Source: Sphingorhabdus sp. EL138 (GTDB taxonomy: Bacteria > Pseudomonadota > Alphaproteobacteria > Sphingomonadales > Sphingomonadaceae). Taken from it: a stretch of DNA of 64,000 nt. The position numbers and the translations under genes were made by a program. The stretch covers positions 1 to 64,000 of the forward strand of contig NZ_CAMDCK010000013.1 in the NCBI RefSeq assembly GCF_945890115.1, given 5' to 3'. Position 1 is the first letter of the stretch, and each line of letters opens with the position of its first letter. The notes beneath the pieces are model-generated. The model was not told the origin of the DNA and did not search any database. It saw only the letters and a list, made by a program, of their open reading frames with translations. Positions 19,045 to 21,896 of this stretch are shown one piece after another.

Positions 19045-20076
19045 CTAATAGGTAAAAATACGGAACTGTTCATTTTCCAGAGCGAGTACCGTGCCTCTCG
19101 CAACACAAGTTAATGGATCGTCTGCTACCATTACCGGCAATCCAGTTGCCTCGCTGATTGCAGCATCCAAGCCACCCAAAAGCGCCCCCCCACCTGTGAG
19201 GACAATACCTTGGCCTACGATGTCTGCCGCGAGTTCAGCCGCCGTATTCTCAAGAGCAATTCTAATGCCTTCAATGATAGCGCCGACAGGTTCCGATAGT
19301 GCCTCTGCAATCTGCATTTGGTTAATCGTGATTTCTTTGGGTACGCCGTTCACGAGGTCACGCCCCTTAATGCTTACCGTCTCCCCATGTCCTTCTGTTG
19401 GACGACGTGCCACGCCAGCTTCCTTTTTTATATGCTCTGCGGTTGTTTCTCCGATGAGTATATTGTGGTGTCGGCGCACATAAGACACAATTGCTTCGTC
19501 CATCTTGTCTCCGCCAACGCGAACCGATGCTGTGTAGGCAAGGCCGCGCAGAGAGAGTACGGCGATTTCCGTAGTGCCGCCACCCACATCGACGACCATC
19601 GTTCCGATAGGTTCTGCGACTGGCAGGCCCGCACCAATGGCAGCTGCCATGGGTTCAAGGATCAAGTGCACTGCCCTTGCCCCCGCATTGGATGTCGCAT
19701 CCCTAATAGCACGGCGTTCGACGGAAGTAGCCCCCGAGGGTACGCATATTACAATCTCGGGAGCCCTTAAGAAACTTCGACTACCGTACACCTTCCCGAT
19801 GAAGTACTTTATCATCACCTCTGCGGCTTCAATATCAGCGATTACGCCGTCTCTAAGCGGCCGGATCGTCTCAATATGTGCTGGTGTTCTGCCCATCATA
19901 AGCTTGGCTTCGTTGCCCACCGCTTTCACACGCCTGACACCATTGATCGTTTCAATCGCAACGACAGACGGTTCATTCAGCACAACACCGCGGCTAGGCA
20001 CATGCACGATTGTGTTGGCTGTGCCTAAGTCAATCGCCATATCGTATGAGGCAAACTTTAGGATCCTGTCGAGCAT
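19045..20076 (-). CDS. MreB-like actin homolog (paralog on accessory region)
   Basis: 343-residue actin-fold protein of MreB length. The phosphate 1 loop is DLGTANT at residues 16-22, preceded by an amphipathic start [14 protein letters not shown] suited to membrane binding. Phosphate 2 is [16 protein letters not shown] near 160-175 and the adenosine loop is [12 protein letters not shown] near 291-302. The ATP site appears intact, so it should polymerise. MreB normally guides lateral wall synthesis with MreC, MreD and RodA, none of which are present nearby. A good RBS (AGGAG) precedes ATG 20076. Its start overlaps the preceding small gene by 19 bp. It is probably a second MreB, acquired with the island; the housekeeping copy should lie elsewhere. 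Confidence 0.9.
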
Positions 20077-20360
20077 TGAGCTTTATCTCCTTTCAACCTA
20101 AGTGCACGAAATCGATAATCAGCAGGAGCGATGAGAATGATCAATGCGTGCGCCGTGAGTAGGGTTATCAAATAGAGCGGGTAAGGCAGAAGAAGTACCA
20201 CTGCGGAGATAACGCAAGCGATGCTGTAGGCCGCAAACAAAGCGTTGCGCGCTGAACACTGCGACCCAAGCGCCCAAGATAGTTGAACGGAGTTAGAATG
20301 CGCAACTAGACTAATGATTGAAAAGAAAGTTACGTTCAAGATTACAAAAGCTTCCTGCAT
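20058..20360 (-). CDS. Small membrane protein, three predicted spans
   Basis: 100-residue protein with no recognised family. Hydrophobic stretches near residues 5-20, 40-60 and 62-80 predict three membrane helices. The tail, [19 protein letters not shown], is basic and probably cytoplasmic. It lies directly upstream of the MreB-like gene with a 19-bp overlap, so the two are very likely co-expressed. It is much shorter than MreD (about 160 residues) and does not look like MreC. A membrane anchor or MreD-like partner is possible but speculative. Confidence 0.6.
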
Positions 20361-20528
20361 CTGTTAGACATCTTGAACAAATAGGACATTAACTGTCGCT
20401 AACGCGGCACCACCCGCTTTTATTTCGCCGGTTGTAGTGGATTTATCTGTAAACAAGCGGCGCAGCGCCGTAAGGCGGCTAAGCAGTGCGCAGATGTGCT
20501 TGATCAACAAAAACATTGCGTTAACGGA
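20361..20528. other. Gap between coiled-coil and membrane-protein genes
   Basis: A 168-bp spacer between two genes of the same direction. No gene or clear hairpin terminator is seen, so read-through is possible, as is an internal promoter. Confidence 0.4.
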
Positions 20529-21896
20529 TCATGCTTTGCGCACGGTTACGCTGCGCTGCGCTGCCTCTAGCTGGCTGGCGAGGAAAGCCGTTTGGTTGCG
20601 CTGCGCTGTCAGTTCCTTCTCAAGTTCAAAGACTTTAAGGCCCAAGCTCTCGATCGTGTCTTGCGCGCTGTCGCGCTCCTGCTCAGATTGACTAACCAGT
20701 CGCGCGACTTGGTCATCCCGCTCTTTTATACCAGCCTCTCGCTCCTCTAGCAATTGCGTCATGGCTTCCAGTCGGGCGGTGATTGTTGCCCGCGACTGCT
20801 CCGTCTGAACCTTGGCCTCAATCGTGGTTTCTAGCTTCGCATTCAGTCGCCCGATGCTGGCCTCGAGCCGCCCAGCCTTAATATTTGACTGTTTTGCCAA
20901 ATCGTCCAGATGTCGAACCTGCAATGCGAGCCGTTCATTTTCTGCAGCGGCTTCGCCATTAACCTCCTCAAGCGTCCGCAGTCTAGATCCAGCGTTATCA
21001 AGCTCCGATTTAAGTTGGTTAATTGTTGAGTCCCGATTTTTTTTATCGTGCTGACCTTCCTCAAACAAACGAGTCATTTCGGTGCGAGCATGTGTTGCCT
21101 CTTGCTCTTTTTGCTGACTGTAAAGAACAGCAGATTGTTTTTCTTGATAAATGAGATCGTATTTATCGTTGGCAGCAATTATCTCGTCGGACTTTTTCTG
21201 AAGGCTATTCTCTAACGCGTCACACTGATTGGAAAAGAGCAATATTTTGCCATTTGCATCGTTATATTTAGCAGTCAGATCTGCAATCTTCAGGGTATAG
21301 TTTCCCACCGTCTCTTGAAGAGAAGAGACTTGGATCTGAAGGCTTTCTGACTCCTCATTCGCTACGGCAAGTTGGCTTACATAACGATCAAGTTGATCCT
21401 CAGTCTCGCGCTTGGCGACACCGAGCAAATGGTGCCGATGCTCCAAAGCTTCAAGGCCTGTCCGCGTCAGCTCATATTTGCGACGTACGTCTTCGACTTC
21501 TGCCTGCAACGGAACAAGCGCTGCGTGCGTCACTTTATACTGCTCCGACTTTTCAGCAAGCTGCTGCTGGAACTGGTCGCGTTCTTGCCGAATAGCCGAA
21601 TTTGTAAGAGCGAGTTTGCGATGCTCCTCAAAGCTCTTTGCTAGGTCAACCCTTAGGACGAGAATCTGCTCGACAAGGGCTTGGATACCAATCAGCCCTT
21701 GATGAACGGTACCGATGGTGGACTCAATTGATTGCTTGCTCTCACCTAGGCTCCCGAACGCCGCCAGATCGTTCGCATAAACCGAATCCTTGTCTCGAAG
21801 CTTGCTCGGGTCACCTTCTGCCGAAGAAATAGCCATTGCATCAGAGGGGGAGTTTGCCGAACCGCGGCGCGAGAAAAGACTCAATATGGTAGCCAT
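20529..21896 (-). CDS. Long coiled-coil protein, crescentin-like candidate
   Basis: 455-residue protein. A basic head (ATILSLFSRRGS), a Ser/Ala-rich linker to about residue 60, then near-continuous heptad-type helix rich in Glu, Gln, Leu, Ala and Arg to the C-terminus, with no signal peptide and no membrane span. Size and head-rod layout match Caulobacter crescentin (about 457 residues), the intermediate-filament-like protein that curves cells and works with MreB. The segment SFEEHRKLAL near residue 90 resembles the equivalent rod region as I recall it. A generic coiled-coil protein is the alternative. The start is ATG 21896 with AGGAT upstream; it lies inside the dead receptor frame before it. 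Confidence 0.7.
   Translation of the reverse strand: MATILSLFSRRGSANSPSDAMAISSAEGDPSKLRDKDSVYANDLAAFGSLGESKQSIESTIGTVHQGLIGIQALVEQILVLRVDLAKSFEEHRKLALTNSAIRQERDQFQQQLAEKSEQYKVTHAALVPLQAEVEDVRRKYELTRTGLEALEHRHHLLGVAKRETEDQLDRYVSQLAVANEESESLQIQVSSLQETVGNYTLKIADLTAKYNDANGKILLFSNQCDALENSLQKKSDEIIAANDKYDLIYQEKQSAVLYSQQKEQEATHARTEMTRLFEEGQHDKKNRDSTINQLKSELDNAGSRLRTLEEVNGEAAAENERLALQVRHLDDLAKQSNIKAGRLEASIGRLNAKLETTIEAKVQTEQSRATITARLEAMTQLLEEREAGIKERDDQVARLVSQSEQERDSAQDTIESLGLKVFELEKELTAQRNQTAFLASQLEAAQRSVTVRKA

Follow-up and report, generated by a model that had tools for sequence, protein, structure and literature searches.

The 64,000-nucleotide stretch of DNA analysed here (the window) lies on contig C13 (NZ_CAMDCK010000013.1) of the 37-contig, 2.31-Mb genome of the freshwater bacterium Sphingorhabdus sp. 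EL138 (Sphingomonadaceae). It carries a candidate cell-shape cassette in which a divergent crescentin-like coiled-coil protein, here called the rod, is encoded close to a second MreB, MreB'. All of its genes are on the minus strand: first the rod gene (20529..21896; 455 amino acids (aa) from its ATG), then a 50-aa remnant of a half-bactofilin gene (20364..20516), a hydrophobic 100-aa open reading frame (ORF; 20058..20360) and mreB' (19045..20076; 343 aa). Given that the successive spacings are only 12 bp, 3 bp and a 19-bp overlap, the genes from rod to mreB' are suggested to form one operon. Scans for promoters and terminators returned site counts below the mean of shuffled sequences. An earlier reading of the window from its letters alone (the sequence-only reading) had described the same three ORFs with the same overlap, strand and lengths, without the bactofilin remnant. 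It had also stated that mreC, mreD, rodA and pbp2 are not adjacent, and indeed none was seen adjoining the cassette when the ORF list from 14000 to 27000 was read by eye.

MreB' matches the MreB_Mbl family over its full length with 437 bits and the NCBIfam MreB model with 474 bits. It is a second, diverged copy, as had been claimed, and not the only MreB of the genome, since the canonical protein is encoded at C16:55338-56345, followed by MreC, MreD, PBP2-type transpeptidase and RodA-type genes and a tRNA-Lys. The two proteins are equal in length and 75% identical. Residues 10-336 of MreB' align with the MreB structure 4cze, and the DLGTAN motif, the Glu of EPMAAAIG and the VERRAI segment are kept; we take 4cze to be the C. 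crescentus protein and these residues to have nucleotide-binding or catalytic roles. Changes between the two copies include some at the N-terminus and some in a loop that reads IHKVHGKRRMFSYP in the canonical protein. Unlike the operon MreB, MreB' of the window has no mreC, mreD, PBP2 or rodA gene behind it and belongs to a clade of its own. In the MreB tree the three full-length MreB' sequences (window, G040 and G034; genomes are designated by number) form a clade with 100/100 support on a branch of 0.41 among Sphingomonadaceae MreBs. This tree holds G034 twice, and the duplicate G034 rows were dropped from the clade tests together with G061_b and G127_b. Among 148 near relatives, MreB' was found in four of the 45 genomes of the same genus, namely the window genome, G040 (94% identity), G017 (89%, truncated to residues 114-342) and G034 (86%). 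The ratio of non-synonymous to synonymous substitution rates (dN/dS) between the window gene and its three orthologues is 0.09-0.17 (0.17 for G034), and the codon counts of canonical mreB were 92 synonymous and 7 non-synonymous of 341. Tree and codon comparisons identify MreB' as a paralogue that has diverged from a Sphingomonadaceae MreB and is under purifying selection.

Second MreBs, 60-70% identical to MreB', were also seen in at least seven Sphingomonadaceae genomes (L045, L046, L051, L055, L056, L057, L058), and in the tree seven of these copies form a clade (91/94) separate from MreB'. When rods and half-bactofilins were searched by tblastn in the 11-14 kb around the second MreBs of G008, G055, G065, G075, G086, G127, G088, G052 and G061, nothing was found, and these nine copies were ruled out as carriers of the same cassette.

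In the case of the rod, the structure prediction proposed in the sequence-only reading was carried out with AlphaFold2 and gave two long helices, residues 54-259 and 264-454, with a mean predicted local distance difference test score (pLDDT) of 83, while most of residues 1-49 score below 50. The closest relatives are in G034, of the same genus (78% identity), and in G530, a metagenome-assembled genome of the Caulobacteraceae (44%). Between the window and G034 the dN/dS of the rod is 0.22, which together with the value for mreB' indicates purifying selection on the two genes since these genomes parted. The rod is rare: it was found in 2 of the 148 near relatives (window genome counted), in 1 of 385 Alphaproteobacteria (the window genome itself, at E <= 1e-6), in 1 of 299 Caulobacteraceae, and at two loci of a species-genome collection with six peptide patterns. 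These searches were based on patterns or seeds, which divergent coiled coils may escape.

The sequence-only reading had called the coiled coil crescentin-like, and this holds beyond mere composition. A profile of the three rods was aligned by hhalign with a profile of 13 crescentins (12 from Caulobacteraceae and one from Sphingomonadaceae, 448-488 aa) with a probability of 92.9 and a score of 59.5 over 369 columns at 19% identity. The match runs nearly end to end, with rod residues 45-449 on crescentin residues 31-442. When the crescentin columns were shuffled in blocks of 7, 14 or 28 (60 permutations each), the 180 controls scored at most 40.3, and the reversed profile scored 20.3. Against a second group, the divergent Caulobacteraceae proteins of G576 and G562, the rod profile scored 56.3, compared with at most 40.8 in 180 permutations.

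The heptad phase, called by a simple segmentation of our own, gave a second and similar picture. All three rods display two +4 shifts, at 277/278 and 400/401, and so do all 13 crescentins, at 240-306 and 396-437; in both, the second shift lies about 50 residues before the C-terminus. Among the divergent proteins from Caulobacteraceae, that of G580 displays the two shifts, and those of G576, G562 and G563b display the first alone. None of nine control coiled coils has the two-shift pattern; eight of the controls, no longer than 356-366 aa, seem to belong to a single family. The protein of G606, which we take to be close in sequence to C. crescentus CreS, has its second shift at 406, counted in an ORF that begins three residues before MRLLS. 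By its position, the second shift of rods and crescentins corresponds to the published crescentin stutter at residues 406-409 (PMC10873595).

Several results weigh against a crescentin assignment. The three rods remain under the curated cut-off of 100 bits of Pfam PF19220 (Rod_CreS), with 12.6 for P0003, 10.1 for P0005 and 24.8 for P0006, and a search of PDB sequences with the A2 profile did not retrieve crescentin at E <= 1. BLASTP of the rod against the 13 crescentins was not significant (best E 0.009 in a set of 21 sequences); against the divergent G563b it reached E 3e-5, but out of register (317-445 on 102-229). The pair G580/G534 was not matched by the rod profile (probability 2.4, score 25.5) although it matches crescentins at 98.9. 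The G534 row of that pair is a poorly chosen ORF of 427 aa, without coiled coil in its first half, which was used in this one hhalign group and in BLASTP and was excluded from the rod tree. Of the two proteins placed in trees, MreB' has its own clade, and the rods are set apart from the 13 crescentins on a branch that is long and joins only the very long one of G563b, with a long-branch warning. Furthermore, residues 1-27 of the rod in the window have no net positive charge (0; G034 -1, G530 +1), while those of the crescentins carry +4 in G606 and G645 and -1 in G071. These first 27 residues, positively charged in crescentin, are reported to be required for its membrane attachment (PMC10873595).

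Taken together, the rod is probably a remote, divergent relative of crescentin. It resembles crescentin (CreS, PF19220) and the crescentin-like clade of Hyphomicrobiales in its length, its low-confidence head, its nearly continuous rod, its shifts and its colinear profile, and differs in scoring below the Pfam cut-off, in a head that lacks net positive charge and in its Sphingomonadaceae host. Since the Pfam cut-off is not reached but the profile alignment and the heptad shifts agree with those of crescentins, the protein is termed crescentin-like here, on its sequence features, and is not filed as a PF19220 member. A clear crescentin also occurs in the family of the window genome: G071, one of the 148 near relatives, encodes it at L087:6861-8243 (minus strand), with 143.9 bits to Rod_CreS and 51% identity to Caulobacteraceae crescentins, and the ORF downstream of it is presumably an IS5-type transposase-like gene.

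We compared the neighbourhoods of the crescentin-type genes in stretches of 6-15 kb, some ended by contig ends (6.2 kb for G580). An MreB gene lies beside the rod gene in four of eight divergent crescentin-like loci (window, G034, G576 and G562, with G530, G580, G534 and G563b as the other four) versus none of the 13 canonical crescentin loci. Unlike these 13 loci, where neither was found, the rod is thus linked to an MreB paralogue and, in its relatives, to a half-bactofilin. The rod proteins of G576 and G562, both Caulobacteraceae, have 458-467 aa and 39-47 Rod_CreS bits and are 47.5% identical to each other. In G576 the MreB gene starts within about 50 bp of the rod end on the same strand, no mreC is seen behind it, and at E <= 1e-40 no other MreB was found in that genome. 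The MreB gene of G562 is divergent from the rod gene and a second MreB, 64% identical, is encoded elsewhere. Both pairs resemble the window in a divergent crescentin-like protein adjoining an MreB without mreC behind it; they differ in that their MreBs are of the Caulobacteraceae lineage, that the order in G562 is divergent and that tblastn found no bactofilin with either pair. Near both pairs stands a homologous gene of 165-169 aa, at 2514-3011 of L122 (G576) and 3443-3952 of L124 (G562), each on the reverse complement; the two proteins are 57% identical over 125 residues.

A common origin of the rod-linked MreBs of the two families was rejected: forcing MreB' together with those of G576 and G562 costs 122 log-likelihood units, with a p-value of 3.8e-49 in the approximately unbiased test (p-AU). 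The MreBs of the two families do not group, and therefore the pairing of rod and MreB arose at least twice. As the window is kin to G034, and G576 to G562, the four loci count as evidence for two pairings. The filament pair of the sequence-only reading is not an obligatory one, as two genomes speak against a fixed partnership: in G040 (84% complete) MreB' is present and a coiled coil was found neither next to it nor elsewhere, and G530 has the rod and a half-bactofilin with one MreB in the whole genome; G017 in addition retains only the truncated MreB'. The search for the same trio of genes in other genomes recovered rod and mreB' together in G034, where the small ORF is only 32 codons long.

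The 3' end of mreB' faces the 3' end of a tRNA gene in three genomes, at 586 bp from tRNA-Tyr in the window, 378 bp from tRNA-Lys in G034 and 585 bp from tRNA-Gln in G017. In G040 a 45-nt string equal to the 3' half of the G034 tRNA-Lys lies 428 bp from mreB'; after it comes an ORF for a tyrosine integrase (Arm-DNA-bind_3, 63.6 bits). Because the tRNA-Lys of G034 follows rodA of the canonical operon, the G034 cassette stands tail to tail with the mreBCD-PBP2-rodA genes. The tRNA-Tyr (gta) of the window was found by ARAGORN at 18374..18459 on the plus strand, with its 3' end toward the cassette (Rfam RF00005, 64.5 bits). Beside it, at 18474..18749 (minus strand), lies a 91-aa integrase-like remnant that resembles the C-terminal part of a tyrosine integrase. 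The sequence-only reading had named a tRNA-Tyr with a dead integrase; the tRNA is clear, while the integrase rests on its position at the tRNA 3' end and a Phage_integrase match of 15.4 bits (cut-off 27.1, E 0.016), with no integrase match in PHROGs or NCBIfam. Integrase traces are thus present at two of the tRNA-associated sites. A repeat of the tRNA-Tyr 3' end, such as an attachment (att) site would give, was not found within the window. Patchy occurrence and the different tRNA sites suggest that the cassette is mobile and may be transferred as a unit. Of the earlier claim that the genes were moved horizontally, the patchy, tRNA-associated location stands; MreB', being a Sphingomonadaceae MreB, need not have come from afar with the rod. 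Neither the 50,697 phage records nor the 72,556 plasmid records contained a match to the rod at E <= 1e-5, no relative was confirmed in viral contigs and no PHROGs family appeared at E <= 0.1, and a phage or plasmid origin of the rod was rejected on these grounds. A defence system was likewise rejected, as only generic coiled-coil matches to JetC were obtained.

Bactofilins are a polymer-forming cytoskeletal family. In G034 a 90-aa ORF (L053:7638-7910) lies between the rod gene, which ends 12 bp ahead of it, and mreB'; it matches Bactofilin (PF04519) positions 1-43 of 98 with 21.3 bits and E 3e-4. In G530 a 66-aa ORF about 90 bp after the rod gene matches positions 1-52 of 98 with 25.9 bits and E 1e-5. 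Both remain under the PF04519 cut-off of 27.9 bits and are half the length of the family, of which the G034 protein retains the core stretch GDVYLLGRIKGKV; a full-length bactofilin is encoded elsewhere in each genome. A structure prediction of the half-bactofilin reached a pLDDT of 35 and was unusable. Following the same gene in two families, the half-length bactofilin appears to be a part of the cassette. In the window only a remnant exists, recognised by frame translation and by DNA alignment to the G034 ORF: the start and the first ~29 codons are kept (20 of the first 29 residues identical by eye), then comes a stop, and the bactofilin core is gone. The bactofilin part of the window being lost, the cassette either functions without it or is decaying. 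The rod and half-bactofilin genes of G530 are followed, at L038:9917-10488 and 11731-11820, by fragments that by eye resemble transposases and by a tRNA-Ser.

The 100-aa ORF is a weakly supported candidate for a small membrane protein, with hydropathy peaks near residues 1-19 and 41-79. Its orthologue beside mreB' of G040 is intact (94 aa, 70% identity, dN/dS 0.41), and in G034 it has shrunk to 32 codons and lost the hydrophobic core. With matches in 2 of the 148 genomes, its own included, and none in the other 146, the membrane anchor of the sequence-only reading finds little in its favour.

In light of these results, we favour, with a probability of about one half, the reading that the locus is a small, horizontally patchy, tRNA-associated cell-shape cassette with a crescentin-type rod and MreB', partly decayed in the window genome. 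Its ancestral order would have been coiled coil, half-bactofilin, small membrane protein and mreB'. The rod would form a stable crescentin-type filament beneath the inner membrane, and MreB' would either attach this filament to the membrane or mix into the host MreB filaments. Wall synthesis would then be slowed along one side and the cell would curve; the half-bactofilin may have aided membrane binding. This role for MreB' follows reports that crescentin is lost from the membrane upon inhibition of MreB or of wall synthesis and a proposal that it slows elongasomes (PMC10873595). The same 2024 paper on the filament structure, in which membrane binding of crescentin was not reconstituted, names MreB as one possible partner (PMC10873595). 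Two of its statements speak against such a partner: AlphaFold 2 yielded no crescentin-MreB complex there, and crescentin curves E. coli, which argues against a special partner (PMC10873595). A wider version of this reading is tentative. In it, the locus would be a self-contained, transferable curvature module. The crescentin-type filament would have an MreB of its own (and a half-bactofilin) as membrane-bound partner, which either moves along with it or is recruited repeatedly, and the pairing would have been assembled independently in Sphingomonadaceae and Caulobacteraceae. If true, this independent assembly would suggest that MreB is the link still missing between crescentin filaments and the membrane.

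The strongest alternative, somewhat less probable than even that wider version, holds that the rod is a crescentin-family filament and that MreB came to stand there by local duplication, without cooperation, in an accessory hot spot at tRNA genes. The genomes with only one of the two partners fit it (MreB' without rod in G040 and truncated in G017, rod with a single MreB in G530). So do the second MreBs of at least seven Sphingomonadaceae, which have neither rod nor bactofilin within the 12-14 kb read; a clade of MreB' with seven of these second copies was not rejected (p-AU 0.29). Local duplication accounts less well for the tight, single-strand spacing in the window, for the purifying selection on both genes between the window and G034, and for the recurrence of the pairing in two genomes of the Caulobacteraceae, whose MreBs belong to a different lineage.

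That the genes are decaying cargo of a degrading island, with little function left in this strain, is unlikely. The 50-aa bactofilin remnant, the integrase fragment, the collapse of the small ORF in G034 and the truncation of MreB' in G017 are all signs of decay, but the rod and mreB' genes are full length in two genomes, at 78% and 86% identity and with dN/dS of 0.22 and 0.17. Least probable of all is a generic rod unrelated to crescentin (SMC-like, for plasmid segregation or from a phage tail) with a chance likeness in heptads: matches to SMC (35.5 bits), tropomyosin (25.8) and JetC (19.2), the unreached crescentin cut-off, the lack of a profile match to G580/G534 and the long-branch placement with G563b would suit it, but the profile match to two other crescentin-type groups depends on column order, the shift pattern is shared, and no match came up in the phage and plasmid records (E <= 1e-5) or in PHROGs (E <= 0.1), nor was a relative confirmed in viral contigs.

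A crescentin-type gene has come to lie beside MreB on at least two occasions, and the MreBs involved differ in lineage, so that the partnership can be tested with two genes, and the cassette offers a natural test of how crescentin-like and MreB filaments cooperate. It would also extend crescentin-type proteins to the Sphingomonadaceae. The PF19220 proteins described in a 2025 survey come from Caulobacteraceae and Hyphomicrobiales. The survey reports that a creS mutant regains its curvature with a homologue from Hyphomicrobiales, and it suggests a phage tail ancestry as possible for the family; neither 'mreb' nor 'bactofilin' occurs in its main text (PMC12700997). Among the matches listed for literature on crescentin and MreB paralogues, no title or abstract opening describes a rod-MreB cassette.

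A few further observations concern the surroundings of the cassette and other MreBs. Upstream of the rod gene lies a 183-aa ORF (21896-22447, minus strand) of no clear family. The G+C content drops to 46-48% across 21-23 kb and goes up again at 23050, with a gene that by eye resembles one for a TonB receptor. Plasmid-borne MreB relatives exist with 75.7% identity on an 880-kb Sphingomonas plasmid and with 62-66% on Novosphingobium and Azospirillum plasmids (records H1-H7), and three contigs of the viral collection (L088-L090), which may be host DNA, hold MreB relatives of 49-76%. Finally, by a sequencing error or a real break, the mreB gene that precedes the mre operon of G030 (L083:5343-6400) is split across two frames.

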